The notes below the pieces were generated by a model, which did not search any database, was not told where the DNA came from, and saw nothing but the letters and a program-made list of their open reading frames with translations. From positions 16,001-80,000 of the forward strand of contig RPFO01002108.1 in the NCBI GenBank assembly GCA_009746045.1: DNA of 64,000 nucleotides, given 5' to 3'. The stretch's first letter is position 1. Every line of letters begins with the position of its first letter. Made by a program: the position numbers and the translations under genes. The stretch is from Mesostigma viride. Taxonomy: Eukaryota; Streptophyta; Mesostigmatophyceae; Mesostigmatales; Mesostigmataceae. Positions 14,869-63,517 of the stretch are shown here, piece after piece.

Positions 14869-16288
14869 CTAGCGCTTCTTGGTGGTCAGCTTGGCAAGTT
14901 GCACCTGGGGGAAACACACCAGCGGCCGAGGCATGCGATCGACCAGATGAGGGACATAAAATAGAACAGACTGCCTAAACATACTGCCAGGTGGGGGAGA
15001 AATTCAGCCGCCACAAGAACTGGCACAAGACCTGTTGACCCCGCTTTTTTCCCCAAACAGACCCATCTATGGCCCCTAGCAACTTGGAATCCGACCAATC
15101 AGGATACCCCTGCGAAGCGCTAGACCCTACCTACAGGATGCTGACCACAGCCCATGCATGAACTTCGTGACTGCCCCGATGAGACCCAGGAAGGAATGAA
15201 GGAATGGCCCGATAGAGGCTGAGCATTGCAGCCATGGGTAGTACAAAATCATACGCAATCCTATCCATGTCTTACTGGTAAGCATTAGAGTGGTAAGCAT
15301 TACATGTCATGCATGATACCGGCGGCCAGAGCGGCCTAATTAATTAATGAAGAAGATGCCTCCGTGGGTAGCATATGTAACACATATCCCTGAGAAGGGG
15401 CATATGGGTTTCAAATACAGTCTGGGCTACAAACTGCAGGCGGAGGATGTAAACTGATGCCTACTCGGGGTGCACAAGGTGCACCTGCACCACTCGCGGC
15501 CAGAAGAGCCCCCGCATCCAAACAATGACCAGCCCCAAGCAACATCCGACTCGCACAGTCATAGACGATAAAGCAGATTCTCATTTTCAAACTGGACAGA
15601 TGACAAAGTGACTTTGGACAGCAACCCACGTTGAGGGGAGGTTTCCAAGGTGCACTCATACTTGAGCATACGTGAGGGACGAACCGCCATACCACATCAC
15701 ACTGAAGTATAGGGATATCAGCGTCCCTTGCGTAACATGACATGCAACGCGAGCAGCACAGTCCTCTCCTCGTACCCCTACCACACCAAGCCATGTAGTA
15801 CTACACCACATTCTCTAGTAAGCTATCACAGGGTATACTATAACCGACATACCTCGAGCGACGTGAGCTGCTTGGCGAGCAGCACGTTCCTCTCCTTGGC
15901 CTTGTTGGTGGATGTGCGCAGTTCACGCATCTGCATCTGCTGGTCCTCGCGCTCGTACTCGGATTGCTGGCGCACGCAACGCAACGCCCGCCAACCGGGG
16001 GGGGGGAGGGCAAGGTTGAGAGTAGTTCACGGAATGCAACACGGGCCATGGGATAACAATACAAGGAAAGTGACGCGCAACGCTGCACCAGCACACATGG
16101 GGCAAGGTGGAGGGAGTGTTAACCTGTAGAGTGCACCGGCCTCAACATCAGCCACATGAAAATGATAACACCAGGAAAATACAAGCGAAGGTAGCCTATA
16201 TTAATTTTTTTTTTAATCTAAATTTTTTATTTTTTAAAAAAAATTAATTTAATTTTAATTTTTTCTTTTTAAATTTAGATTTTTATTA

Positions 16289-16344
<56 letters not shown>

Positions 16345-19300
16345 TTTTAATGTGCCGGCTGACGCAACGGCAGCAACAAGGTCAAGGGCTAGTCGGTCGA
16401 GGGGCAGGGAATCAGGTATTGACAATGGTGAGATACTACAAAGGGGAGAGAGACATACGCCCATGCAACCAGGGGCACACAAGTGAAGGGGAGGAATATG
16501 GCATCCATTAACTTAGTGAGTCACGAAGTCCCGTTGGGGAGCCGTGGAGCATTGATCAGGCATGAACCAGCATGGGAGAGGACAGCATGGGACAGAACCA
16601 TGGGAACAGAACCGGCATGGGGAGAAAGACACGCACACCGACGCGACAAGGGGAGCACATTCAAGCGAAAGAGAGGCGAGAGGCTGGATATGATAATCTA
16701 CACTTCACAGAAACTTTACGGAAACTCTCCACATTGGCTAACATCCCGCTGAGGAATCGGCCGATGTGCAGGGACATTATGCTAACGATTTAAGTTGCAA
16801 TTCTGGTTCTCAGCACTGTTTCATGCACTCGATTGCCATGTCACGCAGAAACCGTGGTTGATGTTGTGTAATACACGCTACGTGTCTCGCATATAAATGC
16901 ATCGAGTGACCATGGTTGTTTCACGCCGTGGGCAAGCGTGGGGAGGCGAGAGGACGTACCGCCAGTGCCACCTTGGCGTTGACGAGCTCCACCGTGGTCT
17001 CGTCCAACCGGCTGCATGGGGCAAACGGGGGGGCAACGCAGCAGGTTCAAGAGACAGGCATCCAGCCAGCCCCAGATAGTGTGCACGAGATGGGGCATGC
17101 CTTCCAACAATGGACCGACAGATATCATGTCAGGCAACCAGTGGCTACTCCTTCCCATTTCGCCCCTCCTTCATTCAGGAAATCTTTCACAAGGGCCAGG
17201 GCATGCACCTGGGTGGGGCTTAGCCCTTGCTACCAGGCGAACCCACAGGACGGGTGGCACAGTTGCCTTCGTGGCAGAGCCAGAGTTTCTCCTGAAACGC
17301 TTTTCTCCTCAAACACAATTGAAGCGCATGAGTACAGCGCACCTACTTCATCCTCCGGTGCTCATCACTGTTGCACCATCAATACCCAGGGTTACACATG
17401 CCCACTACCCAGACTATCTACCCAGACTATCTACCCAAGCAAACCCCGCTTGGACCCTACTCCTATGAAGTGACACATCCAAATGAGTCACGGAATACCA
17501 ACAAGAGCTTGCAAGCAACCAATACACTTAACAGACGACAGGTCATGCTCACAGCCCCTGGATCCTGGCGTACCTGACGGCGTCGGCGTTGGCGGCGAGT
17601 TTCCGCTCCAGTTCCGCAACCTTCGATTCCAGCAGCCGTACACGCCTGCTGGCCTCCTCCTCCGCGTCCTCCGCATGCTTGGCCTGGCCGGCCGATAGGC
17701 ATGAGTGGGGATGGGCGGGTTGTGTGAGGGAAGGAGGGAGGAAGGGGATTGGGGGGCCCAGGGGCAGAGGGCAAGGTTGGGGGAAAGGTACCGAATAACC
17801 TTTTTCAGAACATGGAAAGGCAGAATCAGCCAAGGCCAAAGGGAAGGGGGGGGAAGGTAGGTTGTCTGGGAAGCAGGTTGCGGAGAGTGGCAACTCTAGA
17901 GGAAGGCACGGTGGGCGGGTGGATATGCTTCTTCCGCCACTATTGAAGCAATGATGTGGGTACCATGTGCATGTGCATGGTAGCACGAGGCAAAGTGTGC
18001 AAACTAACGACTTTGTAAGATGCCGACTAGGTTCTTGACTAACCCATTCATAGCCAATACTAACCCAACTATCCGTGATGAAATAGATTGGGCTGCATGA
18101 CACTCTATTTTATATTGAAAATCCAGCCACCCAGGTACCATGGTCGTCTTGTGAACGCCAACACCGCGTTTTATCAAGGAGACAACCCGCGTTTTATGCA
18201 TGCTAATGCCAGCCATCCGCCACACTCTGTATCATTTGGCTGTCCCGCACTGATCACGACCAACCTGTGCCTATTGCTCTACACCAAGCCAGGCAGTGTG
18301 GATCATTTGGCTGTCCCGCACTGATCACGACCAACCTGTGCCTATTGCTCTACACCAAGCCAGGCAGTGTGGATCATTTGGCTGTCCAGCACGGATCACG
18401 ACCAACCTGTGCCTATTGCTCTACACCAAGCCAGGCAGTGTGGCTCATTTGGATGTCCCGCACGGATCACGACCAACCTGTGCCTATTGCTCTACACCAA
18501 GCCAGGCAGTGTGGCTCATTTGGATGTCCCGCACGGATCACGACCAACCTGTGCCTATTGCTCTACACCAAGCCAGGCAGTGTGGATCATTTGGATGTCC
18601 CGCACGGATCACGACCAACCTGTGCCCTATTGCTCTACACCAAGCCAGGCAGTGTGGCAGACGGCATACCGTAGAAATGCATACCATAGCATCCGGATAA
18701 CAGGACGCACGACATAATTAGCACGTAGACTGCGTAACGCAGATAACTCCATGCAGGCGGCAAGTCACTGTATGAGCAGACCCCACCCGCGTCGGGGTGC
18801 GCGCACGTACCTTTTGTGTGGCAACGTTGAGCTCCAGTTTGTGTGCCTCTGCAGACACGGACGCAGCACAGGGCACGCAAGCAGCCGGCACCGGTTTGTT
18901 CTCAACAAGTCAGCCACTGACATACTGGCCAGACCACCCCCCCCCCCCCCCCCAGTAGAACGCTCCTTTTCAGGCTTGCAATCGCGATGTGAGATCGATG
19001 GTTGTTTTCGTTGGCTGTTCGGCTAATGGGCCGGTCAGTCAAGCACAGGCCCACGGTCACGACTACCTAAAAATGACACAACTATCTAAAGATGTTGCAG
19101 TTCAGTATTTATCTTTCAGGTCCGCAATACCACCTACCTTGTAACCATAGCCGTACCCAGGTCGGTGCGGTATCCTGCCCGCTAAGCACACACCAGCGCA
19201 CAACAAAACTGCACCATAACTGCTTGGACGTGAATTCATGTCGTATAAGCGTACATATTGTAGTAATATATATATATATATATACTGTGAACCTCACCCA

Positions 19301-22300
19301 GGTCGGCGCAGTGCAGTTCCTCCGGTGCACCCAGCTCCTCGCATTATCTCCTTTATCCCCTACCTTATCCGCTCACATTATTGACTGAACGGGCCACCCT
19401 CGCCACCTTGAGTTCTTGTACTAGAAGTGTATGGTTGCCTCACTCAGTCTGGAACCTATGCGCCTCACCGAGGTCCGCACGGTACTGCTCCTCCAGCGCG
19501 GCCAGCTCCTCCTGCGCTTCTTGCAGCTGCACCGTGAGCTCCTGCTTCTCTGCGTCAAAGCGGTTCAGGTCCGCCCTGGCGTAGTGAGGGGACAGGAGGC
19601 ATGTGCAGAGACAGGAGCACGCGAGTGAGCTCTAGGGACAGTGATAGCACGCTGCGAGGCAAGAGTTTTTACAGCGGCTGATGTCCGCCCCGCACGCATG
19701 ATCAACAAACCTTTAGTCATCAATAAGAATATCAACCTTATCATCATTGTATATTTAGGATGAGAAACTACGAACACGCACGGATGGTGTAATCACGTGA
19801 TAGAAAACGACTGCATGCGAGGGGGGTCCTAAAAACCAAGAAAAATCAACACGACGCTGAATTCTGATGCAGAATCAAAAGACGAGAACATGTCTCGCTA
19901 GTAGCTACTTCAGGAGATGTCTAGAAAAAAAAGTTGTTGAGATTCTCCCGGCGACCCTAGAAGTCGCCTTCATCTCCATCCAGAATTTTGGGAAGTTGCC
20001 CGTCACAAAAAGTTTTATTTAGATTTTAAGCATCTTTTACTCATGCATCCTGTCTCCATCTGGATACAGCTACTCTGACTTTCCCTGCTTCCGGCGGCTA
20101 GGGGGGGGGGGGGGGGGCGGAAAAGAGGTGAAAATTTTGCGGAGCGTTGTGTCTGTAATCTTTTTTTGGAGTACCCCCTCGTTGCATGCGTGAAGAAACG
20201 ATGAAGGAGAGACGTGATCCCCGTGCGAGCAGGACAGGTACGCGAGAGAGTAGAACGGGATAGGCACCGAGGCATGGAGAGATGACGCGCCAACAAGCAC
20301 ATGCACACTTGTGGAGACGGGGAGCGAGTGATACGGCTGCAGCCTCACAACGGCTTGCTGGCTGTGAGGATACACATAAGGGCAAGCTTGCTTATTGCTC
20401 CATCTTGCGACTCAGATGCTTGATATGCTAGTCAGCTGGCTTGCTATGCTTAAGCAACAACGGGGTTGAGAAAACTATTTAACGTGTCTTGGTTATAAGA
20501 AGGCAACAGTACCAGGGGCTGGAGCAATAATGAGCAGATCAAATGGCCTCGCCACCCAACATGACAGTGTAGCACCGGCAACTCCAACCAAGGCCAGTCA
20601 AGCCACCAAGCAGCCCATCATGATGTGCCTCCGTAACCAAAGCTCACCTGAGGTTGTCATTCTCGTCTTGCACATCCTGGAACTCTCCCGCTTGCGGCTG
20701 CACACCGAGGGCCGGTTACAAGAGATTAGGCAACCAACAGTCGGCAAGGACAAGAATCGAAGTGTCAGCAAGCAGGGAACCCCACTTCCAAGACGAGCCG
20801 ACGTTCATCCTTCCATCCTGCACCAACCATGCTTGCTCCTCCAAAATTCCTCCCCATTTTTCTCCCTATGGATTACCAATGGGCCTCCAAGCCAGCTGCT
20901 TAAGTTAAAAAAGGCTGAGTTATTCAGAGTTAACTGAGGCTGTCGCTCTTTCCCTGGCCCGTCACGAATCCCATGACGAACTTTATCCACCACGGAAGGC
21001 CACAAGACATGCCATTGACGTGCCGCAGGCACGGAGCAGTAGGAATAATTGAAAGAAGACTCAGGCCCGCTATACCCGCTGCCCATGGGACAAAGTGTGT
21101 CCACTTGAAGGATGTTCACTCGACCCCATGCCTGCCTCGAGCAGTTCAAGCTCATGCAAAGGCCTCAAACAGACATCCCCCCAAAACAAGTCGTCGCTAC
21201 CCCCTGTCCCCACCTCGAGCTGTTTGTGGACCATGCAAGGCCACACGAGACACGCCGCCAGTGACCACTCACCCCCATGCCCGCCTCGAGCAGGTTGACG
21301 CGCTCGGTGAGCTTCTCGTTCTCCCGCGTCAGCTTGGTGGCCAGGTTCTTGGCCTCCGCCTTCTCGCGGATCAGCTGCTCCATCTGGTGGGTGACAGCAG
21401 GGAGCAAAGGAGGAGCAGAAGATTGCATGAGAAAACATAGGGGCCAGTGAAAAACCAAAGGTCTCATGAGTAATATAGCAGCGCATAGAGTAGTAAACTG
21501 GATTCTCTTCGCAAGCAGCAACCCCCCCCGAGAATCTCTCGCCTAAAGTTCATCCCCATCTTGACTCTAAACACAGACCCCAAAATAGCTTTCATCCTGT
21601 TTCGCACCCAGCAACAATCAACGCTCACCTCTATGCACCTAGTGCGCGCCCACCTACTAATGCTCACTGCTTCTAAACCAAGCGGTACAAGTCCCCCCCA
21701 TTATCATCCCTCTCCCAAGGTTACCTCTCAAAACACCACCGGCTTGCGCTCAACGCTTCAAAACCGATCAGTACGATCCCTCCCTTGCGCCTCTCTCACT
21801 ACCCCACCACTCCGACATCTAGAAACCCACCCAAATATCTGAATTATAAACTCACAATTACAGAACCCAGTCACACCCCTAAAACCCTAAAACCTCCAAA
21901 ACCAAACTCAAACCACTAGCCCCCACTCACACTTTTTGATGAAAAAAAATTCCCTGCCTTTTACTGAAAAAAAAAAAAATCACCACCCCCCACCTGCTCG
22001 CGCATCTGCTCAGACAGCTCCTGGTCCCGCTTGCGCTCCCGCTCAAACTTGGCGCGCATCGCCATCAGCGTGGGCGAGACGTCGTCGCCTGCATCCCCGC
22101 GGTCCATCGATGCGTCCTCATTCCACTCGGGGAGGCGCGACAGCCGGGCCTCCAGCTCGGCAGATGCGGCCGCGGCCGACTCCTTGGCGACGGCGAGGTC
22201 CTCTTGGAACTGGCGCAGCTCGTCCTGGGAGGCCTCCAGCTGCTTGCGGAGGTCCTGCAGGCGGTGGATGGAGTAAGAGATGGGTTTAACGATGCAGTTA

Positions 22301-25300
22301 GGAATGGGGGTCCGGGGGTTGGGGGGAAAGGGGGGAAAGGCAGGAGGTATATGAATAGTGGTGGTGTAGGATGGTTTGATCGGGAGGCATTGTGGTCAAC
22401 GCAGTGCTGCATATAACGGGTTATATGTGGGCGGTGGCAGTGTTGCAAATGGGGGAGTGACAGGGGAGGAAATCCTTTCCCTTTGTTGAAGCCTACCCTC
22501 CATTCCCTTTCTCCACGTTCCCCTTCGCCTATCCCTTCCTCTACACTCCCCACCTCCTCTTCCCCTCTGTCCACGCACCCCTCCTCCGTCCCATCCGCCC
22601 CCGCCTCGCCTCCTACCTTTCCCTCTACGCTTCGCTCCTCATTCCCCTGTTCCCTCGCCTCACCTCCTTCTCGGCCTTGAGCGACTTGACCTCATCCTTT
22701 ATTCCCTTGATCTGCTCCTCGTACATCTGCCGCTGCTTCTTCAGGCTCGCCTTGGCCGCCTCGTGCTCGATCGACGCCGCCGCCTCCTTGGCCTCTTGGA
22801 TCTGGCACACAGCACACACACCACACATTACATTACGCCAGCACGCCACCACAGACACACCGGAAAAACATACATGACCAAACAAGCAAATGAGCAAAGG
22901 AATTGCATTTGTATTGCATGATTATTGTAATTGAATTCGCATTGCATGATTTGCACATTGCTATCGCAAGGGAATCACACACCGGGAGCTGCGACAAAGC
23001 AACAGGCTTACATGTGCTTGTCATGCTCCAGCAGCACGGTTAGTTGCTACATCGTTTATTTGCGGCAGCAGAGGCAGAGAGAGGGCAAGAATGCACACTA
23101 ACATGTCGAGCAAGGAAGCTGAACACTTCATGACGACGTATAGCTATATCAGTCCCGAAAAACAAGTATTCTATATCTTGTCTTCTCGCAAGCCAAGCAC
23201 TCAGGCCATAACTGATCTGGTCTGGTTCAGAACGATACCACATGGTCTTCCCTTGCCTCCGCCACCTATTCCACGGTGTCCCCAGAGCAACCCATAATGA
23301 GCAACCTCATATACAGCTATAACCGTTAACTTCGCATTATCTGGCGTTCATCTCGCATTCACCTGGCATTCATCTAGCATTCATCTAGTACTCATCTAGT
23401 ACTCATCTAGTACTCATCTAGTACTCATCTCGCATTCACCTAGCATTCACCTAGCATTCATCTAGTACTCATCTAGTACTCATCTAGTACTCATCTCGCA
23501 TTCACCTAGCATTCACCTAGCATTCACCTCGCATTCATCTAGTACTCATCTAGTACTCATCTCGCATTCACCTAGCATTCACCTAGCATTCTTCTAGCAT
23601 TCATCTAGTACTCATCTAGTACTCATCTCGCATTCACCTAGCATTCACCTAGCATTCACCTCGCATTCATCTAGTACTCATCTAGTACTCATCTCGCATT
23701 CACCTAGCATTCACCTAGCATTCTTCTAGCATTCATCTAGTACTCATCTAGTACTCATCTCGCATTCACCTAGCATTCTTCGAACGTTTTTCATCCATGT
23801 TCATCTCGCATTCACCCAGCACTCATCTGGGATAACCCTACCACTTCCCAGCACGAGAATGGCCCCCACCAATTCCCAACAAGCACGAAAACGGCCGGCG
23901 GCCTCACCTTGGCCGCCATACTCGACTCCAGCGCCGCTTTCGCCGCCTCCTGCTCTGCCAGCTGCGACGTGAGCATGGCCACGTCGCCCTCTAATGCCGC
24001 CACACGGCTCCGGAGCTCCAGCATCGTCATCGACCGCCCCCCTGCACCCGCCGGGGACGACGTCTTGGCCAAAGCCAGCGGTGGCCGACCCAGGTTTGAC
24101 TTGGACGCGGGCGATGCCTCCGGCTTGGCCTTGGCCTCACCACTCTTGGTGCGCTTTATGCCCGCGTCCGCCCCCTCGGCGGCCGCCGCGAGGGCTTCGT
24201 CAGAGGAGTTGGACGAAAGATCGATCTCTAGCTGCTCCTCGCCTTCCTCAATTGTGGCCTCGGCGCCGCCGCGCCCGGCACGCCCCCCACCATGGTGGTC
24301 CTCAAACCCTTCAAAGTCCTTTAAGTTGCCCGCGTCGGGCTCTTCCTCGATGCGGCCCGGTCGGCCGAACTTCCCGCCGCCACCGTCCTGGTCGCTGGAG
24401 CGGTTGCTAGCATACGATATCTCGGAGACCATCTCGGAGATGCCAGCATCCGACCCCGCATCCGACTTGCCGCCGTAGTTCTGGAGCCACTGCGCGCTGA
24501 TCGTCACCTGTGGACGCATGCGCGCGTGGGCCGGTCGAGCTTGATGATAATGTCATGAAGCTAATCATGCGGGTGTGTGCGCGTGGGATGATGCTGGGCC
24601 CCGATCATATCGCCCCGGGTGTGTGCGCAATGTGCACGGACAACTCACTATATGATAGGAATCCGACCAAAAAAGTGGTCGCCTGGCAGACTGCACTTAG
24701 TCGCAGAAATCTTAGGTTGTGCACTTAGTTGCAGAAATAATACGGATTTTGGCAGTGGCACTGGCGCCATGGATGACAGTTGCGATCTTGTGTCGTGCTT
24801 TTGGTCAGATACCATGCAGGGTGGGAAGGCAGCGCAAGGCAGGATGACCAGATGATCGGCGTGCGGGCAGGATGGGGACATAGCCACACAAAGGGACCGA
24901 GGAACTTTGCAACATGTAGATTCCATTTTACAATTCGGTTACTGTGTAAATAACAGAGGTGCATAGCCGAGGTACAATCAATCAGTGTGCTGAATGTACT
25001 CTAGAGTATTGGCAACCACGGCAATCTAATGTGGAGGAGAGTGTACAGAAAGGTCTACTTTAAAAGTCGATCAATATTTTAAAAAGTCCAGCATTTGGGG
25101 AACGCAAACCTTGCGGTCTGCATGATGGACACAGCATACACGCACACCTGGCACCATGAGACCAAGCAGAAAAGTCACAAAGACCGTGCCCATAATTGGC
25201 CACACATTTATATCAAGTCACACAAAGGCTGTAAATAAGTCATACAAAGGCTGCGTGTATCTCACACAAGGGCTGTAAATGCCATACATACAGAAAGACA

Positions 25301-28352: not shown

Positions 28353-29377
28353 TTGCCAGCAGTTCCTTACACTCGATGTGACTCGGAAGCCTTGTCACCT
28401 CTTGCAGTTATTTGAATTGTGCCTCTGTAACTACACAAACACGCATATACGCAACTTCATTTGGAACGGATACAAATTTCCGTCCTTCGACACGCTGGCG
28501 GTCTTGGCATTACCATCCAGATGCCTATGCTGTACGAAGCTCGGAACGACTAGACGCTGACTCCAAAGCCTTGCGTGCCGAACCCAGGCTAAATGCGCCC
28601 CAACGGTTGGCCTGGTGAAGCAATGGCGGTCATGTCGCCCGGGGACAGGTGTATCTTGTCTGCACAATCGACAGCGCACAACCGCGTCTTTGTCGCGCCC
28701 CTGTGTACCTCGATCCGGACTCAGGTGTCAGCTCCTAACCGATTGAATAAGAGATTAGTTGGGGCGATTGGGTAATTAGATAGGGTGGACACTTTTCACT
28801 CGGTCACTCCTCACTCCTCAGGTGGCAGGTTCCTATCCGGCTGTGGCTTGGCGCTTCCCAGGCAGATCGCAGTTGTTGCCCGTACCTTTTGACCAGGTTG
28901 ATGGCCAACAGTCATAATTTGATCTGCAACGGCAACGGCCTGACTTGCATCGGAGCTGTACAGCAGTGTATTGTCTGTACTCGCCACGTGTGGCCTTGCG
29001 ATGCGCCGCAAAATTTAAAACGCGACGGCATGCCACGTTTCGAAACACCAAAGTTTTCTACTCGCCAAACCTGATTTGAAAAAACATGCTAGCAAGTAGA
29101 AAAGGTATCAAGTGGCGACAAGTGGCGAGTTTGTGCTTTGTTCCGGACATTGCTAGGCTGGCGCGTGCAGACCACGGCGGCGCGGCGCAAAAAAATATTA
29201 TTGATTATTGGCGGGCTGCCATAAGTGCCAGTTTTTTACTAAGATTGCAGTTGCGCATACGCCAGCACAACATGCCGACACGAGAACACGAGTGACGCCA
29301 GTCCCGCCCCGATGAACGTCGCCTCACGTGAGTTATAAAACGGACTTCCAACAGCGGGCCGGCATTGCCTCCCAACG
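28353..29377. promoter_or_regulatory. Shared intergenic region between divergent NT-C2 and PRPP synthetase genes
   Basis: About 1.0 kb separates the two divergent starts, so both promoters and 5' UTRs must lie here unless there are unseen upstream non-coding exons. No TATA box is obvious at a sensible distance from either ATG. I see no other gene in it. Confidence 0.5.
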
Positions 29378-29428
29378 TTGGGAGCGCACGGCTGCGTGAG
29401 CCAGCTCGTCCTTAACCAGGCCCCGACA

Positions 29429-44275: not shown

Positions 44276-44399
44276 TAGCTTAGCTTAGTTAGCATTAGTA
44301 CAGCCAGCCATGCTACGCCAGGTAGTAGCTATGCTCCGCTTGCTTGCCCACGCTCCTGGCTGATGATTGATATGCTCACGCGGGTCTTATTGCATCCAC

Positions 44400-44715: not shown

Positions 44716-44739
44716 ATAATTTAATATGCCGGATCATCT

Positions 44740-47352: not shown

Positions 47353-47535
47353 CGGGCCACACCCGTCATCATGAATGGCCGAGCATACAGTCGTTCTGGA
47401 TGTAGTCCGGATGACGCGTAGTTGCTATCTGTGACTCCAGACCTTGGCAAGCGAGTCTCGCCACTTGCCTTCGCGGGTGAAGTATCCGCGTAGAAAAGTA
47501 CCTCATCGGGTACTCCGTGGCATGCCTTCATATTG

Positions 47536-51841: not shown

Positions 51842-52349
51842 ATATGTATATAGATTCATGTTCATGTCATGCCTGCGTGGTCCTATCTACTTTGTCAGTG
51901 TACCTTGGGGCGCGTTCACATTATACAATGTTCACACACTACTACATTATTCACATATATATTTATGCATGCCGCTCTCACCTCCTGAATTATCAAAATC
52001 AATGAATATATATTGATGACTTATGTAGGAATTCATTATTTAGTTTATATATTAATCAATAATGAATACTTATGAAAATCACCAAAACAATACAGGGAAA
52101 GGAGGCGAATAAGAGAAATATGGAAGTCCGAGACAGCCAAAGGACTAGCATCCAACTAAAAGTACAAGCTACATGTAACTACCCTATCCAAAGGGTGGTG
52201 ACCTGCCAGCCCCCTATCTAATGATCTAGGGAGGTTGGGTGGGGCGAAAGTTACTTTATATATTTATAAATTGAACATGATATGTGACGGGAATGAGACA
52301 AGCAACACCATTAAGACATAATATATATGTGCCTGTACGTACACATTCG
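51842..52349. other. AT-rich 3' flank of the taxilin gene
   Basis: This must contain the 3' UTR of the minus-strand gene. No coding region and no clear polyadenylation signal is visible. Confidence 0.35.
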
Positions 52350-52856
52350 CTAGCATACCTCCATGTGGCGTGCCTTTTGAGAGGAAGACGGCCCCACTGC
52401 CCCATCGCTCACGCCCTGTGTGTCCTCCTCCGTGCCATCGCCACCCGCATTCCCCTCGTCATCGGGATCCGGCTCGCCCTGCTGCGCCCCGCCCTCCGTT
52501 CCTTGTGCACGCCCCTCAGCAACAGGATGGCCCGTGTCTGTGTTCCGCGCCTCCTCACTGGCTGCTGAGCTCGCACAGGCCATGCCAGCCGGCCGCGCTC
52601 CAATTGCGACCGTGCTCCCAGTAACGGACGCATCACCTTCTGTTGTTGAGGGTGTTTCTGTTGGGGCATCGGGGGTGGTGGCAGGGGGTGGTGATGGTTG
52701 AGAGGCCTCGGTGCTACTCGAGGGCGCGGGCGTGCCGCTGGACGGCAGCTGGGCGCGCAGGGACCGGCAGAGCGCCTCCAGGGACTTCTTTTGGTTGGTG
52801 ACAAGCGCAAGGTTTGCCGCCAGCCCCGCTTTCTGGGTGATGCCACCAGGCCACGG

Positions 52857-52900
<44 letters not shown>

Positions 52901-55900
52901 GTAAGTAAGTCAGTAAGTGCTTGCGTGTCATGCGCAGAGGAAGGATGGCAACGGAAGGGTTCCGCCGATAGAAGGGTTGAGCAGGGTTGGGGTTGGGGGT
53001 TGGGGTTAAGGTTGGGTGGGGGCACCAGGCAATGGAAAGGTTGAGTGGGGTTGCGGTTGGGGTGCGGGGTAAAGTTTGGAGATGGTACAGCAACCATACA
53101 ACAAATGACGCGTGCGTGCGTGTGTGCGTGCGTGTGTGCGTGCGTGCGTGTGTGTGCGTGCGTGCGTGCGTGCGTGTGTGCGTGCGTGCGTGTGTGGCAC
53201 AGAAAATGTCGCCCATGCTTTAAGCGGATGGACGTGGGTGGCCGGCACAGCAACCACAAGACAAACAATACATACTGTGGTTTATATGCGCGGGAGTCCA
53301 AGTCACGGAAATCTACTAGTAGCTATCGCGAGGCAATGCAACTCTTGTACCAACTACAGTGTCCACCATCTGCTCGCTTGCATTATTCCCACTGTACCAA
53401 CCTGGAGAATTTTATCCAAGTGACTTGTGGGGACTCCAGGATGTGCTTTCTCAACAAGAAAACTCGGTCGTCAAAATTTTTACCGGTGAAACTGAGCCTG
53501 TCCCCGGCTGCCGCCCCCCCCCCCCCCCCCCCCCCCCGGTCCCCCTCTCCCCTCCCCGCTTCTCCGCACCTGCTGCTTCACCTCTCTGCCTTAACCTGGT
53601 TCTTACTGGCCAAACCAGCCTAACTCTCTGCTTTGATGACCTCCCTTTTTCTGCTCCTCCGCCTCCTTGCCTGTAGGTCGTTGTTCTGCCCTAGACAGAC
53701 TAGCTGTCCTTCCTGTTTCGCGACCCTTACCAGCTCTTTCCCCCCCCTCGTTCCCCCTCACTCCTCTCCCCTCTCCCCTCCCCTCACCCCTCACCGTCTC
53801 CTCCGCCTCCTCGCCCCTCTCCCTCCCCTCCTCTTTCCTCACCTGCTCCTCGGCCTCCTTGAGCGCTGCTTCCCCTATCGCCACCTTGGCCTTGGCCGCC
53901 GCGTTCTCCTTCTTCAGCTTGGTGATGCTCTTGGTCATCTGGGGAGAGGAGGGACCACGCTATGGCTTGACCGAACAGGTCAGTCAAAGAGAATTAGGAG
54001 CAGAATGTAGAGGGCAGCAAGCTTGGTACAGTAATGCTCTTGGTCATTTGGGGGGGAGAATGCCCACACGGACTTGTTACTTGTTATAAAAGAGCAATAC
54101 AACAGCGCAATAGCATTGGGCAATGAGCTTGGTTGGGCGATACAAAAGGGCAGTGATGCTCTTGGTCATATGTGGAAATGGTGGACACCCATTATGGATT
54201 GTCATTCAAGGATTGTTAAGAAGGTTTGTTATGGATCGTTGTAGGGGGCAAAAAAATGGGGTTGAGAGCAGAGCATGGAGGGCAGCTGATCTTAGGACAG
54301 GATATGCATAGATAAAATTGTGTCAGATGCATGGAGAAGGGTAAGAAGAGAGTGCAGCAGAGGGCGATAAACTTGGTGATGCTCTTGGTCAGCTGGCGGG
54401 GAAGGCATCCCACGCTGACTTAACACTTAAGGTCAGCACAAGAGGGTCAAGGGGAGCAAGCCCTTGAAGAGGGTGGCAAGCTTGGTGACATTCTTGGTCA
54501 CCCTTGGGGGCCGGGTGGGTGGGGGGTGGGTGGGGGGTGGGTGGGGGGTACAACATACTACAGTAGTAAAGACTACAGAAGAGGTAGTACTAAAATATAC
54601 ACAAGGGTGAATGACGACAGTCTTACAAAAGGGTGGTAAACGGTGAAAAGAGGATGAGGCACGAGAGGCAAGCCTGACATTTCCCATCCTGGGATATTTT
54701 CATGAACCACAAGTATGTAAAATCATGAGGACTTGGGTGAGAGGTGGGTGGCAGGTACATGAGAAGCACAGGGGGAGCTAGCGGTACGGATGACAGCAGC
54801 ACATGGTTCAACCCAAAACATGCACCGCTGGATGGCACCGCCACTGGAGATGTCAACAGACAGTGGCATTGCAAGCTGGCAACAGCATGGCAATACGAAT
54901 TGGCAGTAGGAGTTCAGCCATGCAAGAAAGCGACGTGCCCCTGGCAACCCACCGTCTCCATCTGGGACTTGTACATGGTGAACACCTCGTTGCTCTTCGC
55001 CAGGGTGGTCTGGGAGGTGGAACAGAACATAATAATAGCAAAGCATGGCAAGGCCGGGAGTCGGACATGATTCATGCATTAACTGTGTGTGCCAGGTCAG
55101 AAGAATGCCATTATAATGCATAACAGGTCGCGATTGGCATTGTGGCGCCGTCACACAGCCACCATGAGCTGTAAGAATTGGCTTTGAATCAGCGTTTGCA
55201 ACAATTATTATGCACCGGGGGGGAACAGATGACATCACTCGGGTGCCTGGCCGGGGTCGCTACCCAACAAATGCGCTGTCATCATAACAAAATCAAAGTA
55301 GATATACTAAGTAAAATAACACTACTAGTAGGAAGTAAACAACTAACTGATTAGCTAGCTCGCTAAATAAATAAATAAATAAACACAGGTCCAACTCCAA
55401 GTCCCGGTGGTCGCATTATCGCCATGGTCTCCATCCCACCCCCTGTTTGCACCCTTCACCTGCAAGTGGGACCTGGGGTGCAACCCCAGTTGTTGCACCC
55501 ATTCCATGAAACAACAACTCACACAACTCAAACAACTCAACTTGTTGGTCACACAAGACAGATCACATTCAAGAACTGCTTAGCAAAACTAATATATATA
55601 CAACACCTGTCACAACCAACCCATGCAGCGAGGCACCCTTTTCAAATGGAAAGACTCACATTTCCCCGCATACGACTCCAGCCGTCGCCATTAGGTGCTA
55701 TTTCCTTGCGCTACACAACTAAACCCCTTTAGCAAGGCTCCCCACAACCCACCCAGTGAGCTTGTACCTGGAACGACTTGAATTTCCCAGAGTACAGCTC
55801 CAGCTGTTGCCAGTCCATGGTTACTTCCATGCGCTAGACGACCAAACCCCTTTAGCAAGGCTCCCCACCACCCACCCAAGTGAGGTTGTACCTGGAAGGA

Positions 55901-58900
55901 CTCGAACTTCCCCGCGTATGACTCCAGCTGTTGCCGCAGTTCGGCCTCACTCTTGCGCGACACCTCAAAGCGCTCGGCGAAGATGGCGCACTGCGGGGGG
56001 TGGCAGAATGAGGCGGCAAGGTGGCATCGCCAAACAACGCTCAGGTGGCATACCCAGTCAACACTCAGGTGGCACAGCCAATCAACCATAAGGTCGAACT
56101 GAGGGACGGTGCGGGGAGCTCCTTTGGTCCAGCACAAGTGAACGACGCGGGAAGCTGCCTCACTGCGGCCGCCCAGCAGTGACTATAGGTAGATCATGCA
56201 GGGAATTTCTAGAACTCTTAGGATAGAGAGGGCAAAGTGGCCCCTTGGGGGTGGCCCTCGCGAAGCCTAGTTTGGGGTAAGGAGGTCGCTGTGCAGGGGT
56301 TTCGAGAGGACTTCATGAGACCTAGACATAAGGCGCAGTGAGGGCGGTAGCAAGGTGGAAATGTGGTGGCAACCAGGTGGCCATAGGGGGGGCGAACCGG
56401 GGACAGCATGATTGGAAGTGATTGCATGGTGTAGGCTGGGGGGTACCGGTAGACTCGACGCCTCACCAAGATGGCCTACTGCGCGTGACATGATGCTAGT
56501 AGTATAATACATGACGACACAGGATGGTCAAGAGTAGAAATGTGGTACGTGACGACACAGGATGGTCTAGAATAGTTAAGAGACAGGAAAAATACCATGG
56601 TAGGCTTCACAGTGTAGAGAGGGGATTAATTAATTAAGTAAGTAATTAATTATACTCGTGCTCCCGTTGGCAAGTCACGGAGCACCGAAGTGCTTTTAAC
56701 CCCTGTATGTGCACAACAAGAAGAAAGGGCAGAGACCCCCTTTCTCCTTCATGCCAGAGGCATGCCACAGCAGCCATCGGACACGATAGACGATCCGGCA
56801 AGTTCTGTGGGTGCAATAAGACTCATGTGAGCATATCACAACAAGGAGCGTCGGCAAGTAATCTGATCATAGCCAGGACGTAGCATGGCTGTACAAGGGC
56901 TGATCTAAGGCTATGGCTGGTTGTGTACCGTGCGTTAGCGGTGCACGTGACTGGGTATGGTGGCACGGCTAAGCAAACATTCCAGGCATGGCTGCCAGGG
57001 TGGCAGTGACTACCAACGATTCAAGCTAGGGCTATTCTAGCCCGCAGGGGGCGACCACATCTAGAGAGGGAATGCACCTGTAACTCCACACTTCCGCCCA
57101 CCCCTCGCCTCGTGCGATCTACCCCCCCCACACACGTTTAAGATTCTCAGGTTTAAGATCATGAGACTCTGGATTTGACCTCTACTAGCAGTATAATTGT
57201 AGTAGAACTTAGTAGAATCGAATCACAGCAGTACGATTCTTTAAGATCGTGAGCGCTGGATTGGTCGGACCCCAATCTTAAACGTGTGGGGGGGGGGGGG
57301 GTATAGACCGCGTGGTCCTCCCCCCGTGGCCTCCATGCTCTCAGACACCTCCCCCTCGTGTGCTCTACACGTCATGATACAACCAGGATGTCCACACACC
57401 TACCTTGGCCTCCAGGCTCTTGGACACCTCCACCTCATGCGCCAGCTTGGCATGGCCCAGCTCGATCTCCACCTCCTTCGCCTTGAGCTGAGAGGGGGGG
57501 GGGGGGGGAGGGATGGTGACAGGGGGCGGTATTTAACGGTGGGGTCAAGGGCTGGGTTAAAGGGTGGGGTGAAATCGTGCCCTTCAGCTGGGGGGAGAGA
57601 TGGTGACAGGTGGTGGTATATAACGGTAGGGTCAAAGGGTGGGGTGATAAGGTGGGCTGAAATCATGGCCTGAGCTCTGGGGGATATCGTTTGATTGACC
57701 TCTGGGGGATATCGTTTGATAATAATAGAACTCTTTTAACAATAAGAGGTGCCAAAACAAGAGGTACAAAATGGTAAGATGCCACGGTGGGGTGAGAAAA
57801 CAGGATTTAAATAGCAGAATTGTACCAATGAGACAACCAGCGCAGGCCAGAAATCTGGAGAATCCGGACCAATGTGGTGGTGAAAAATGGTGGGATAAAA
57901 ATATGGGTAAATATTGGTGGGATTCAATCGGGGATCAAGTTATTGGGTACTAGGTAAGATACTGGGAGGATGGTTACATCATACTGCACATAATGTGGGG
58001 GCCTTGTGAGCTCAGGTCTAGACGGTGCTCTGCAAGCATTGAATGTAGATGCTTACTAGATCATGTACAGATTTTCAGTGGTCAAAGAGCCCAACAGCAT
58101 GGTTGATAATCTAAGATGAGCCTGCTTGGTCTCTATACAGCTATGATAATTAGTATAATAGGCTCCTTTAGCAACTTAGGTAGAATTTTTGGCACTGGGG
58201 CACTTAAGACGGCACTGCCGGTGCATTTCCTACTCTAAAATCCACGATTCCCATTCGCGTTACCTGGCTGGCCACGTATTCATCCCTCAGCGTGATCTGC
58301 TCCAGCACCTTCTTGACCTTCTCCCGCAGCCTGCAGTCGGGGTGGAAAGGTGGTGTGCAACAAAAAGGAGCTTTTAAGAATTTAACACTTAATGGGAAAA
58401 ATACAAAGAGGGTAAAATTCACCATAATTTGAAAACACTGGAACAAACAACAAACACGGGACAGCAAATAATGCCAGATACTGAGGCCAGGATTTTAAAG
58501 AGATGGCGGGGGTGCGGGGGGGTTGAGGTCTGGGAGGGGGAAGGCCACCATGTTTGGGAGATTGTTTGGGAAATGCCATCTCCTAAACTATGGATGCAGA
58601 TACCGACCGGGGAAGGGCACCGGCACCTTCTTAGGCCCTCGATCCAGCTAGTCATATTGCACGCGTCAGCGTAACTAACAGGAAAAAGAAAGCACCCCCA
58701 TCCCTTAACAAAAAAATTGCTCTACTGTAACCCTTCACTAATTACTGGCTGCCATGGTGATCAGGAACACGTGCCTTCTTGTTCAAGCTCACAGCCTTTT
58801 CTCCTGAACTATGTTAAACTACCGAAGATGCAACTCCCCCCTTGGTGCTACATCTCCCACACTCGATTGAAAAGCTCTGTCATTTACAGCTCATTCTCCT

Positions 58901-61900
58901 TTGTCCGTTCCAGTACCAACCCAATAACGACCAGAAACGAAGCATGGCCCCCCTAGCAACCCCCCTCCCACACACAGCTCCTTGTCCTGCACTGGTTCAG
59001 GTGTTAGACAAGCAGCTCCTTCACACAGCTCCTGGTCCTGCACTCGTCAAGGTGTTAGACAAGCAGCTCCTTCACACAGCTCCTTGTCCTGCACTCGTTA
59101 AGATGTTAGACAAGCAGCTCCTTCACACAGCTCCTTGTCCTGCACTCGTGAAGGTGTTAGACAAGCAGCTCCTTCACACAGCTCCTTGTCCTGCACTCGT
59201 GAAGGTGTTAGACAAGCAGCTCCTTCACACGGCTCCTTGTCCTGCACTCGTGAAGGTGTTAGACAAGCAGCTCCTTCACACAGCTCCTTGTCCTGCACTC
59301 GTGAAGGTGTTAGACAAGCAGCTCCTTCACACAGCTCCTTATCATACACTCGTTAGGGTGTTAGACAAGCAGCCCCTTCACTCACAGCTCGTTCTCCTGC
59401 GCCAGCACCGCCTTGCTCTGGTCATGCTCCTCCAGGCGGCGAGAGACACCCTGCAGGGGTCAAGGGAGGGTGGGGGTGGGTGGGTGGGTGGGGAAGGGAG
59501 CCCACCAGGTTGCGGAAATTCTTAGACATGTCTTTAAAGGGTCAATTTGGACTCGTTGCAAGCTGACTAACAAAAGAAATTTGGATAGGATGAGCTAGGC
59601 AGAAGAAACCCTTCCAACAGTTATTGGTTACCATACATGGTTGTCTCCTTGATACATGTCCCCACGGACCCGTGCCTCCTAACCGCAATGGCTTTAACAA
59701 TCCCAACAGCCAACCAGCATCAACTGGATTTAGGGTTTTACCCCCTACGAATCGAATTCCTGAACATCCGTACTCAGGTGATGCTGTGTAATTGGGCGAC
59801 CATCCTCAACCCACATCGCCCGCCTCCCCTCTAAGGCCACTGCACACATCCACCCACGACCCCAACAAGGCTTGACTTGGCACGACCACCCACGTCCATG
59901 GTCAAAAGTAATCTACTCACACCTATGGCTATAGCACATCCACTCACGGCAACAGCCATGCTACAAACATCCGCTCACATCAACGGGCACACAAGAGCCA
60001 TCCATCCCCGGCCACGACCACACCATCAACACACAATCCACCCTCACTGCCACTACAAATTCTTCAATGTCACTACAGTCACTACAGACTCTTCAACTCA
60101 CGTCCACCGTCTCCTGGAACTGTCGCCGCCGCTCCTTCTCGAGCTCCACGTTGCGCTGGCTCAGCTCCTGGTTGGCCCAACCGTGTGTTTGTGTGGTGAT
60201 GGCGTGTGGTTGCGTGGTGGTGGCGGTTCCGGGGGGGCGCCGAGGCATTCAAGAAGGGAATTCAATTGTTTGTGCTGGCTCAGCTCCTGGCATGACACAC
60301 AACACCATATGAGGGTCACCAAAAATAGAAATCATTAATATATTTCGCTGGCTGAACTCCCGATGAGCAAAAACAGGCAGGGGGAGGTGGCGGTGGTGGT
60401 GGAGACGGGGCGGGGCGGAACGGGGGGGCAATATGTAAAGATATCTAATCATTGCAATGGCTCAGCTCCTAGCAAGGAATTACGGAAGTGGTACACAACG
60501 AGATCAACTGGACATGCTGCGCTCAACTCCTAACGATCCAAGCCCAAAACTTTCAACTTGTGCACTTATCCACCATTGAAGCCCACCCCCTAAGCATCAC
60601 GTTCTTGTTCTCATTTCCATTCCCTCCCCCCCCCCCCCGCGCGATCATCACCCTGTTCTTCTTCTCCTCCTTCTGAACCCACACTCCTATCTTCCTAGCC
60701 CCCCTTACACACACCGCAACCCCTTCAGCGCCCCCTCCCCACCCTCACCATCATGTTCTTGTTCTCCTTCTGCAGCCACACCCTGACACCCAACCCTTAC
60801 ATTCGTACCTTACTAACCCCCATTCTATACACATAGCCCACTCACCATCACGTTCTTGTTCTCCTTTTGCAGCTCGCGGCACAGCGTCTCAAGCTTGCCC
60901 TTGATGGCCTGCGTCTTGCTCAGGTCGCTCAACACTGGCACGTGGCCCGCAGCATGATGGCAACGAGAGGGGGCATGGCTCACAGCATGAGGGTCATTGG
61001 AGGGTAGATAGGAGGAGGCAACGTTCAGGAATCATGGCATATTTATATATGTACTGGCCGGACAACTTATGAACTGAAGAAAACACACTTCAACACAATT
61101 ACCTGTTAAATGTTACGTACATTACACACGGTGCAAAGACAACGTCCGAGGAGACGACGAACAAAGAGCACCGCGCAAGGGCAAGGGCAGGATGGGCAAC
61201 AACTAAACCATAAATAGATAGATACTAGTAAATCAAATATTAATAATATAAAATAATACAGGGCAGAATGGGCATCATCTAAAGCCATCCTTGTCCCCGA
61301 AGACCCATCCAGCCAGTCCAACATGTCCACAATCCCAGGGGCTTTCCTCGCTAAGCCTTAGTCCGTGCCACCAGTTGGCTCCTCCTCCTCCATTCCCGCT
61401 CAAGTGCACATCAACCCACCCATACCAAGTGTTGCTTCCATCTGTACCCTTTGTCCATTCCACCACCCCTGTCCTTAGCCCATGCACCCACCCCTATGCT
61501 TGCGATATAACAGGAGGCCAACCGCTTCACACAGTCATCCTGCGACGCTGTCATGGCCCACCCACCCATCCACCCACCCCCCATCCACCCACCCCCCATC
61601 CACCCACCCCCCATCCACCCACCCCCCATCCACCCACCCCCCATCCACCCACCACCCACCCACCCACCCACCCCCCATCCACCCACTCCTGTCCTCTGCC
61701 TCTTTCAACCAACCAACCACCCCATCGGCCCACCCCACCCACCCATGTCCTTCTCCTTCTGCAGCTGGTCCGCGCGCCGGTTGGCCTTGGCCAGCTCCTT
61801 CTCCATCGCGTGAAGCTTCTCCGCCTGTGGGGTGCATGGCAGAAGGGGGAATGGGAGATGTAGAGAGGTATGTAACAAAGAGGTGAGGGATAGCCTACGG

Positions 61901-63517
61901 CCAACTCCTCCACACATACACAAAAAAGAAATTCAAGGTTTTTTCCTTTTCTATTTTTTTAAGATTTCTCCGCCTGTGGGGCGGATGGAATAGGAATAGA
62001 TAGGGCAAGGGATTGCAAGGAAGGACTGAAGGGAGAGAGGCGAGATGGAGTAGAAAAACAGCTCGGTGCGACGTGGAAAAACAAGCTCCTTTGAAGGGGG
62101 TTGTGGGGGAAGGGTTAATTATGGGAAGGGCTGAACAATGGGCGATTGCAGGGTAGATGGTTAGTGATGGGAAAGGTCTAGATGGGATGGCAAGGGACTG
62201 GTGGGAAGCATGGCTAGGTGAGCAATTACAGGAAAAGCGTGAAAGGGCTAGATGGGTAGCAACGAGTTCGTGGAGTAGCCATTACCGAGTCAGGGGAAAG
62301 CCACAGGAGAGTATGACACCAGGTGGACAAATAGAGCAGCATGACGTGGCAGCTGGCAACACAGGCACGACGATCAAGGCAGCAGAAAATATTCGTGGCG
62401 GTAGATTGTAGGGTTATCTTTCCTATTTCGTGAGTTCCTATTGGACACAATACTGAAAGGTGTTGCCATAACTTTCAGAATCCGATACAGCACGCCTCTC
62501 GGCGAACATAGTACCATTAACGTCCATGAGAGGTGATGTCATAAGCATTGAATAACATGTAGTGTCTCATTTACATGCTGAGCCAAGCATCATGTGCCGA
62601 AGGCCAGGATATGCTTGCTACCAAACTGTACCAGGGTACCTGCTCTCCGGACACACACATCAGTCGTCCCAGACATTTGTAGTAAGCTGTATCCACACTC
62701 GGTTCTCACTTCTTTCTAGCCTTAATAAGCAGTGTCTGCGCCAGTGGGCTGGGTAGACCTTCAGGTGATGCGAAGCGACTCATATTAAAGGGAGTCTGCA
62801 TGGCAAGTTCTTGTTGCTGCGTAGCACTGTTTGCCGGATCCTTTTCTGTAATATAACTTTGGAATGGCGCACTCTCTCTATATATGAATATTAATGCAGC
62901 TTGGATAAACTGTAAACGTTATGCCATGATCCAACCAGAGGCGTCACGGGCGACAACCATATACATCGTGGTGGAGCGTGCCATTGGGCGTCGAATATGA
63001 TTATGTGAAAAAGTGAACGAGTTTGAATTGTTGCGCACCTGGGTGAACAGTTTGTCTTGAAGCGACTTGATCTTCTCTTCAGGATCCTTGGCGTGCTTGC
63101 TGTCGCCCGCTCCCCTCTTACTGGCTTTGCCTGTCCGTTGCGACGCGGGAAACGCCAAACGTTGACGTTGGCTACGTCGCCATGTCAGTCAGCTATCAAT
63201 TAAGCAAAGTTGCGCGGGAAAATATACGCCTTTTACAAGCCCACAGAAATATATAATTTTGTAGTAAGGGGAAGAATGCATGGAATAGGAATGCCGAAAA
63301 AGTGCAACGCAATGCTAGGTAAAAAGCGCCAGCACCGTTCTACAAGTCTTTGCAAGTGCTTACGAAGTGAGTCGGCGACGGCAGTGCTCTTCTCCGGAAG
63401 CCCGTCATCAGAGGAAGGCGACGAAGATCCCTCGGGCTGTGCCCTAGAGCAGCTGTCAGTAGCTGGCGCGTTAAGAGCGCAAATGTCAGACTCGGCGACG
63501 CAAGCCATGTTGGTCAT
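52350..63517 (-). CDS. TXLN: Taxilin-family coiled-coil protein, 12 exons
   Basis: Exons, minus strand: 63517-63364, 63130-63039, 61824-61743, 60934-60846, 60167-60102, 59450-59386, 58330-58264, 57487-57404, 55990-55892, 55009-54953, 53938-53843, 52832-52350. The phases agree and the total is 1434 nt (477 residues). Taxilin signatures occur in the right order: KGKLETLCRELQKENK (~121-136), LREKVKKVLEQITLRDEYV (~184-202), LRQQLESYAGKFESFQ (~251-266), TTLAKSNEVFTMYKSQME (267-284), MTKSITKLKKEN (286-297) and KKSLEALCRSLRAQL (~331-345). Nearly the whole of residues 60-345 is a predicted long helix. Residues 1-60 are Ser/Glu-rich; 346-477 form an acidic, Pro/Ser/Thr-rich tail. Animal taxilins bind syntaxins and act in membrane traffic; the algal role is inference. 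The start follows an in-frame stop 18 nt upstream. Confidence 0.93.
52856..52900. repeat. (AAGT)n microsatellite
   Basis: About ten AAGT units lie 25 bp upstream of the exon 12 acceptor of the taxilin gene (minus strand reads ACTT repeats), where a branch point or pyrimidine tract is expected. Confidence 0.9.
53105..53196. repeat. (GTGC/GTGT)n microsatellite
   Basis: Alternating GTGC and GTGT units in intron 11 of the taxilin gene. A C-homopolymer of about 20 nt follows at 53514-53537. Confidence 0.9.
54019..54510 (-). repeat. Four echoes of the acceptor and 5' end of taxilin exon 11
   Basis: The real junction on the plus strand reads AGCTTGGTGATGCTCTTGG then TCAT|CTGGGG (53916-53944). Copies: 54019-54057 (AATGCTCTTGGTCATTTGGGG), 54126-54175 (GTGATGCTCTTGGTCATATG), 54368-54410 (TTGGTGATGCTCTTGGTCAG then CTGGCGGGG) and 54478-54510 (AGCTTGGTGACATTCTTGG). 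The third keeps a CTGGCGGGG context, that is a CAG acceptor on the minus strand. They spread over 0.5 kb of intron 10. Confidence 0.75.
55651..55860 (-). repeat. Echoes of the 3' end and donor of taxilin exon 9, ~123-bp period
   Basis: Copies of the exon end lie at 55651-55695 and 55765-55815; the true exon end is 55892-55935. The middle copy keeps TTGTACCTGGAA, the same donor context as the real exon (GTTGTACCTGGAA). The linking sequence ACCCCTTTAGCAAGGCTCCCC is also repeated (55723 and 55846), so the unit is a tandem duplication that includes exon and intron. Confidence 0.8.
56605..56830 (-). mobile_element. LINE 3' UTR and tail fragment (minus strand) in taxilin intron 8
   Basis: Read on the minus strand: CGGATCGTCTATCGTGTCCG, GGCATGAAGGAGAAAGGG, TTGTGCACATACAGGGGTT, the stem-loop with loop CAAC, then (TTAA)n. 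It matches 47226-47352 and the 44720-44790 stretch. Confidence 0.7.
57321..57366 (-). repeat. Echo of the 3' end of taxilin exon 8
   Basis: GGCCTCCATGCTCTCAGACA then CCTCCCCCTCGTG copies the exon text GGCCTCCAGGCTCTTGGACA then CCTCCACCTCATG at 57408-57441, 80 bp away. A poly-G run (57288-57301) and an earlier, weaker copy (57105-57125) lie further into the intron. Confidence 0.65.
57824..57872 (+). repeat. Dispersed ~40-nt repeat copy
   Basis: GAGACAACCAGCGCAGGCCA followed by GAAATCTGGAGAATCCGGACC; relatives at 41430-41477 and 7648-7690. Confidence 0.6.
58973..59385 (-). repeat. 51-bp tandem array derived from the donor end of taxilin exon 6
   Basis: Eight units begin at about 51-bp steps (AGCTCC at 58976, 59027, 59078, 59129, 59180, 59231, 59282, 59333), then comes the real exon end at 59386. 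On the minus strand each unit reads TGCAG|GACAAGGAGCT|GTGTGAAGG, against the exon's CGCAG|GAGAACGAGCT|GTGAGTGAAGG. The array therefore repeats a possible acceptor, an 11-nt exon-like core and a possible donor. Confidence 0.8.
60270..60535 (-). repeat. Four echoes of the acceptor and 5' end of taxilin exon 5
   Basis: The true junction, plus strand, is GCGCTGGCTCAGCTC|CTGG (60153-60171). Copies: 60274-60290 (TGCTGGCTCAGCTCCTGG), 60344-60362 (CGCTGGCTGAACTCCCG), 60457-60472 (ATGGCTCAGCTCCTAG) and 60517-60532 (TGCGCTCAACTCCTAA). The first keeps the CAG acceptor. Confidence 0.7.
60595..60776 (-). repeat. Echoes of the 3' end of taxilin exon 4
   Basis: The true end reads CTCACCATCACGTTCTTGTT then CTCCTTTTGCAG (60841-60872). 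Copies: 60595-60622 (GCATCACGTTCTTGTTCTC), 60650-60675 (decayed) and 60743-60775 (CTCACCATCATGTTCTTGTT then CTCCTTCTGCAG). The last retains both a GT donor and an AG acceptor around a 21-nt core. Confidence 0.75.
61555..61690. repeat. CCCACCCATC-type minisatellite
   Basis: C-rich 13-bp-like units (CCACCCACCCCCCAT) recur about ten times some 50-180 bp downstream of the exon 3 donor (minus strand). The donor itself reads GTGGGTGGGG, so the array may have grown from the donor sequence. Confidence 0.85.
61964..61990 (-). repeat. Echo of the acceptor of taxilin exon 3
   Basis: TTCTCCGCCTGTGGGGCGGA copies the real TTCTCCGCCTGTGGGGTGCA at 61817-61836, including the CAG acceptor (CTG on this strand), 147 bp upstream in the transcript. 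Confidence 0.65.

Follow-up and report, generated by a model that had tools for sequence, protein, structure and literature searches.

Exon ends in a 64,000-nt stretch of the Mesostigma viride genome (hereafter the window, meaning the whole stretch that was analysed) have degraded local copies in their adjoining introns, each copy carrying the exon end together with the splice site. These copies, referred to here as junction echoes, occur in all three genes of the window, which encode a taxilin, an NT-C2 domain coiled-coil protein and a PRPP synthetase (PRPS), and they recur in other genes of the same assembly (440 Mb). Across 26 gene regions, echoes were found at 65 of 202 donors and 20 of 209 acceptors, and the resulting figure of about one third of donors is an estimate over these regions, not a whole-genome count. 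The best explanation, with a probability of roughly 0.72, is that short local direct duplications arise across exon-intron borders, are tolerated since the authentic splice site stays in use, and remain visible for longer beside a constrained exon than elsewhere in the intron.

Junction echoes in the window genes

The models of the three genes were built by hand, and each of them gives one open frame with GT-AG introns. The identity of the PRPP synthetase is also backed by a PDB sequence search, and the start of its first exon was set at an ATG. Of all introns identified in these genes, PRPS intron 7 is the longest, with 3.2 kb.

52350..63517, minus strand: taxilin gene, 12 exons; Pfam Taxilin PF09728, 5.1e-60
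14869..27051, minus strand: NT-C2 domain coiled-coil gene, 13 exons found, 5' end not found; Pfam PF10358, 4.2e-19
30155..40956, plus strand: PRPP synthetase (PRPS) gene, 10 exons found, last exon not found; Pfam Pribosyltran_N, 8.1e-46

Each junction, represented by 30 bp of exon and 10 bp of intron, was compared with its adjoining intron after masking of simple repeats. Controls were length-matched pieces of other introns and the own intron in reverse complement. A score of at least 14 was taken as an echo, while the number of copies per window junction was counted at a score of at least 13. The mean score of the 65 window junctions was 11.6 in the own intron, compared to 8.3 in its reverse complement and 8.2 in other introns. 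A score of at least 14 was reached by 17 of the 65 junctions and by none of the 65 in the reverse complement, and 19 junctions exceeded a z value of 3.5 against other introns. Among the 17 junctions at or above 14, the taxilin exon 3 donor (14) lies below its best control piece (18). Junctions with echoes have one to nine copies at distances of 17 to 579 bp.

The initial annotation of this DNA, made from the sequence alone, had described such copies in all three genes, and this claim is borne out, as exon ends match their own intron better than unrelated introns. Of the 14 exons named there, 13 have a z value above 4.5, provided that its NT-C2 and PRPS exon numbers run one above those of the present models. 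We infer this offset from the first exons, which are missing from the present models. The exon numbered 13 in NT-C2 (present exon 12) is the exception: it is weak in the junction test (z 1.9), and a self comparison aligns 45 bp at 73 %. The echoes at PRPS exons 9 and 2 were absent from the earlier list. In the following lines, the earlier exon number is given in brackets where it differs.

60586..60776, minus strand: three copies of the taxilin exon 4 end and donor; scores 29, 23 and 14; z 21.7
55647..55794, minus strand: two copies of the taxilin exon 9 end and donor; tandem unit of about 123 bp; z 15.7
54031..54509, minus strand: four copies of the taxilin exon 11 acceptor and start; scores 23, 20, 19 and 17; z 13.0
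58971..59400, minus strand: 51-bp tandem array of 8.4 units, starting within the end of taxilin exon 6; z 4.8
57324..57352, minus strand: copy of the taxilin exon 8 end; z 8.3
53651..53811, minus strand: two copies of the taxilin exon 11 end; z 6.6
61944..61981, minus strand: copy of the taxilin exon 3 acceptor; z 7.7
60270..60470, minus strand: two copies of the taxilin exon 5 acceptor; z 8.0
21117..21226, minus strand: two copies of the NT-C2 exon 6 (7) end and donor; z 8.1
19292..19323, minus strand: copy of the NT-C2 exon 8 (9) end and donor; z 8.5
30235..30375, plus strand: 35-bp tandem array starting within the end of PRPS exon 1 (2); z 11.1
32569..32600, plus strand: copy of the PRPS exon 3 (4) acceptor and start; z 8.0
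34517..34554, plus strand: copy of the PRPS exon 6 (7) acceptor and start; z 11.4
41038..41063, plus strand: copy of the PRPS exon 10 (11) end and donor; z 6.6
40055..40079, plus strand: copy of the PRPS exon 9 end and donor; z 4.3
31904..32019, plus strand: two copies of the PRPS exon 2 end and donor; z 5.8

Tandem arrays run in register across the border at taxilin exon 6 (51 bp), taxilin exon 9 (about 123 bp) and PRPS exon 1 (35 bp). At taxilin exon 4, whose authentic junction lies at 60845/60846, weak homology over the full unit is seen at a shift of 97.

Prevalence, direction and structure across the genome sample

The sample of 26 gene regions consists of the three window genes and 23 loci that were picked via two gene families, as stretches of 8-10 kb around kinesin (PF00225) and chaperonin (PF00118) matches in the same genome. 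Exons outside the window were predicted by a script trained on the three window genes and kept at a score of at least 15. When each window gene was left out of the training in turn, all 25 predictions at this score overlapped hand-made exons, and 23 of the 35 exons built by hand were reproduced exactly. Two predictions had a differing end, one of which was due to an echo donor being taken in taxilin exon 11. Therefore, the exon filter misses exons but adds few false ones.

Several stretches were left out of the counts, namely L001, which stems from the contig of the window itself, L015 and L024, which hardly differ from L014 and L016 where they overlap, and L023, a second copy of L022. L028 and L029 are not part of the counts either, and L027 is not part of the repeat-event count (62 events in 126 introns). 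The paralogous stretches L002 and L003 were both counted. The duplicate contigs in the assembly are 99.97 % identical over 6.0 kb (L014/L015), 100 % identical over 7.5 kb (L016/L024) and 93-97 % identical (L022/L023), and such pairs are probably retained haplotypes or redundant contigs. The sampled introns show a strand skew, with 36 % G to 20 % C in their first 50 bases and 42 % C to 20 % G in their last 50.

Donors with an echo amount to 12 of 33 in the window, 43 of 139 in the kinesin loci and 10 of 30 in the chaperonin loci, and the corresponding numbers for acceptors are 5 of 32, 14 of 145 and 1 of 32. The 23 loci outside the window alone have echoes at 53 of 169 donors and 15 of 177 acceptors. 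The excess of donors over acceptors is about 3:1 (Fisher 1e-8). Only two of all 411 junctions have a match in the reverse-complement control, and at least one donor echo is present in 25 of the 26 gene regions. Where echoes occur, their copy number across the sample ranges from 1 to 10. With the pattern present in further loci, the proposal that the echoes result from a recurrent local duplication across exon-intron borders is upheld beyond the window. The added description of series of increasing decay survives as a tendency only, since the nearest copy scores above the farthest in 23 of 36 multi-copy donors, below it in 10 and equally in 3 (p=0.02).

The echoes have a clear direction. Copies of exon ends were found in the downstream intron in 42 of 143 cases and in the upstream intron in none of 143, while copies of exon starts were found in the upstream intron in 12 of 143 cases and in the downstream intron in none of 143. 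Copies from the middle of exons are rare (3/143 and 1/143, with 1 and 1 in the reverse complement), and the exon part of the copies tapers off by about 60 bp from the junction. Of the 61 donors whose intron end is known from high-confidence predicted exons, 60 have their best echo in the first half of the intron, and none has it in the last 100 bp. The offset of donor echoes ranges from 26 to 410 bp with a median of 113, is at most 160 bp in 43 of 65 and does not always correspond to one unit. This direction and reach fit duplications that span a border rather than dispersed insertions.

Tandem structure was also found outside the window. The kinesin stretches L002 and L003 have a tandem array with a 70-bp unit across the same donor, and in both of them, as well as at taxilin exons 6 and 9, the repeat across the donor is longer than its shift. 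In L022, a 40-bp unit comprises about 31 exon and 9 intron bases. An alignment of L002 and L003 shows that the copies within one gene share the differences that separate the two genes, including those on the exon side. This points to homogenisation within the array or to its repeated renewal, and suggests, as far as an alignment can, an exchange between the exon end and the intron repeats.

Origin and decay of the copies

We propose that short direct duplications, many of them tandem and with units of roughly 30-170 bp, would arise repeatedly in the introns of this genome. A duplication spanning a border would give the intron a second exon end and splice site. As long as the authentic, exon-proximal site is the one used by the spliceosome, the protein would be unchanged and the duplication could persist. 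The exon would then remain under constraint, and decay would affect the copy as well as the intron parts of both units, until a short echo of the exon end and the splice-site consensus is left. Duplications at acceptors may be rarer because the copy lies upstream and would be met first.

Whether the border itself is a hot spot was addressed with 36-bp segments that have a downstream copy. Such segments make up 11.8 % of those centred 48-300 bp past the donor and 19.8 % of those centred in the last 24 exon bases, resulting in a ratio of donor to intron plateau of 1.68 (95 % interval 1.13-2.46, 192 donors). For acceptors, 7.5 % of the segments on the side of the exon compare with 6.9 % of those in the intron, a ratio of 1.09 (0.63-1.79, 198 acceptors). 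By our own argument, which is not a computed value, a ratio near 2 is expected without any hot spot if ages are evenly spread, because the authentic exon hardly changes while both copies within an intron drift. Measured in this way, no hot spot is required at donors, and acceptors may show a mild depletion, although the upper limit of their interval falls just short of 2. Of the 13 repeats that reach 90 % identity and 30 bp, 2 overlap a donor where about 1 is expected under uniform placement. At 85 % identity these are 4 of 18 against about 1.6 expected, and at any identity 17 of 56 against 6-7. The donor excess thus grows with the age of the repeats, which is the direction given by longer visibility, with small numbers in the young classes. 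Moreover, 36 of the 62 direct repeat events are intron-internal, so that a border hot spot is not needed. The notion that the process is centred on borders therefore finds little backing, given that introns widely carry local direct repeats. A pure border hot spot is supported neither by the segment profile nor by the young repeats with their small numbers, and it is the tandem simulation described below, with its poor fit, that leaves room for a border-specific component.

Several observations weigh against simple border-spanning duplication. Non-tandem echoes occur at 47 of 171 donors compared to 45 of 970 matched intron points, which makes them about six times commoner at donors, and the longer visibility of exon copies can explain at least part of this excess. 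Only 20 % of 59 donor echoes are in tandem register, and most are no longer in register, unlike intron-internal repeats. About half of the echoes keep no homology on the intron side, which is above the expectation for simple tandem duplication. While 9 of the 11 echoes with an exon part at least 90 % identical over at least 15 bp are tandem (5) or have intron homology, this applies to 4 of 16 at an identity of.84-.90 and to 14 of 32 below.84 (6 of the 65 echoes, with an exon part under 15 bp, were excluded from these classes). A neutral tandem simulation with units of 50-170 bp and an indel rate taken from the apparent haplotype pair L022/L023 gave clear tandem register in 65 % of cases, whereas it was observed in 17 % of 23 selected echoes. 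Similarity on the intron side of at most 9 bp was obtained in 16 % of simulated cases and observed in 57 % of the same 23 echoes, and units of 30-60 bp (33 %) or threefold indels (23 %) narrowed the gap while still falling short. Residual intron homology was observed in 12 of 22 echoes compared to 79-85 % in the simulation. This poor fit reflects either a turnover of intron sequence near the donor that is faster than in the model or some copies being made as short patches. In the haplotype pair, which differs by 2.0 % substitutions and has 19 gap events to 106 substitutions, two of the five gaps of at least 8 bp (43 and 18 bp, between predicted exons) resemble tandem duplications. Both lie inside introns, and no segregating border duplication was found in this single pair.

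These discrepancies speak for an alternative in which the exon end and donor are copied into the downstream intron as non-tandem patches of 20-60 bp. Conceivable sources of such patches are transcription-coupled repair or template switching at the G-rich beginning of the intron. Such border-directed copying would account for donor echoes being mostly out of tandem register and often ending within 10 bp past the junction on the intron side, for the excess of donors over acceptors and for the misfit of the simulation. The G-richness over the initial 50 bases of the introns (36 % G to 20 % C) is in line with it. However, the most similar donor echoes, with an exon part at least 90 % identical, are tandem or have intron homology in 9 of 11 cases, and young repeats show no clear donor excess in their small numbers. 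End-joining with snap-back templates is expected to yield inverted copies. Inverted junction copies are nearly absent (2/411), and introns as a whole contain 13 inverted pairs compared to 62 direct repeats. We therefore consider border-directed copying unlikely. The same doubt attaches to the broader idea of a process that differs from ordinary tandem duplication, is tied to the donor side of transcribed introns and would preferentially copy exon ends and 5' splice sites as short direct patches into the downstream intron, leave traces at about one third of donors and let the repeats exchange sequence with the exon end.

Other origins carry far less weight. Selection could keep the echoes as functional decoys that tune splicing, and in line with this the GT is kept in 44 of 65 donor echoes, and 20 of the 65 score as well as the authentic donor; at acceptors, the dinucleotide is kept in 15 of 20 echoes. 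As sequence, the suggested supply of decoy splice sites therefore holds. The accompanying claim that the copies keep exon-side codons stands up poorly, since the mismatch rates at the three codon positions over the 65 donor echoes (0.157, 0.146 and 0.234) resemble those of a neutrally decaying copy of a constrained exon. In 14 of 44 cases the frame runs open from the exon to the echo donor, compared to 8 and 11 for the other two frames, a difference too small to suggest coding use. Together, the codon-position pattern and the frame test rule out coding or selected copies as the main cause. Given also the copy number of 1 to 10 and the 137 of 202 donors without an echo at a score of 14, functional decoys are very improbable, and the echoes are plausible decoy sites by their sequence, without a sign of selection to keep them. 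Traces of intron birth, where tandemly duplicated exon sequence with AGGT ends gave rise to the introns themselves, would invoke a mechanism that is known from other organisms (PMC4974935). Under this model, the end of the upstream exon should recur next to the AG at the intron's 3' end, whereas the best echoes lie in the first half in 60 of 61 cases and never within 100 bp of the end (0/61), and no exon start is copied into the intron that follows it (0/143), which makes this origin hardly credible. Chance or low-complexity similarity between purine-rich coiled-coil exons and repetitive introns deserves next to no weight. Taxilin and NT-C2 are coiled-coil proteins, the window has many simple repeats, and the taxilin exon 3 donor matched one control piece at a score of 18. 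Nevertheless, other introns and the reverse complement otherwise gave no comparable matches, the wrong-side introns gave none on two occasions (0/143 each), and PRPS, which is not a coiled coil, also has echoes. We reject this origin on the basis of the other-intron, reverse-complement and wrong-side controls. Introner elements, where one family occupies many unrelated introns, were likewise rejected on the basis of control means of 6.7-9.3 against other introns of the window, no genome-wide family search having been made.

Relation to known systems and other window features

The closest known system are the mirages of amphioxus, which are direct local duplications spanning exon-intron borders at both 5' and 3' ends (PMC3087553, PMC3902484). 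In these reports, the units measure 10-72 and 150-160 bp, many of them contain AG/GT signals, and the mirages are described from few genes of one animal group, although they may be more general in cephalochordates. Part of the echoes described here (L002, L003, taxilin exons 6 and 9) share the tandem units across the border, both borders are affected, and the unit size is similar, with 43 of 65 donor-echo offsets of at most 160 bp. The homogenisation reported within mirage clusters resembles the kinesin pair L002/L003. In contrast to what is given there, about one third of the sampled donors are affected here, in a photosynthetic green-lineage genome and with a 3:1 donor bias, and mostly by single or few decayed copies instead of clean arrays. 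Undisturbed splicing is reported for amphioxus on the basis of mRNA data, while here it is presumed, in line with the open frames of the three gene models, which use the authentic sites.

In potato, a tandem duplication across an intron-exon border was followed by the gain of an intron (PMC4974935). That case shares the duplication crossing the boundary, but the new intron formed inside the duplication, whereas here only copies within existing introns were found. The tandem arrays, with periods of 35-123 bp, resemble intronic minisatellites in general, except that several of them begin inside the exon. The genome contains chlorophyll a/b-binding LHC genes, in keeping with a green-lineage alga. 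No genome-wide pattern of border copies in an alga or plant was reported in the literature searched, which left most subscription journals outside. The echoes are thus filed as an unusually abundant case of the mirage kind, in a lineage for which no report was found. This likeness is one of form, not of descent, and what is new here are the lineage, the prevalence and the 3:1 donor bias.

The window contains further repeats and putative mobile elements. An open frame at 11411-12268 on the plus strand is similar to reverse transcriptases (PF00078, 7.9e-7, 29.4 bits, just below the family cut-off of 29.6) and probably belongs to a non-long-terminal-repeat retroelement. Frames at 45859-46179 resemble it by eye and have no Pfam match. 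Likewise without a Pfam match, an 804-codon open frame at 39-2453 on the plus strand is possibly part of a mobile element. Two inverted-repeat units, one inside an intron at 25631-26374 with 25-nt arms of 100 % complementarity and one in PRPS intron 7 at 37521-37827 with 38-nt arms of 92 % complementarity, may be small non-autonomous DNA elements. PRPS intron 1 has a 616-bp tract of GTGGGGG-like repeats (30653-31268), and PRPS intron 9 contains 62 units of ATCC (40463-40710).

If the proposed origin of the echoes is true, the genome of M. viride would hold very many natural experiments, a number that is extrapolated and not counted, in which two similar 5' splice sites stand in the same exon context about 30-200 bp apart and one of them is presumably chosen. 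The effects of proximity, transcription order and exon context would be directly comparable in such pairs. The duplications would also represent one measurable route of intron growth, and they would suggest that intron repeats can be homogenised with the exon end from which they originated.

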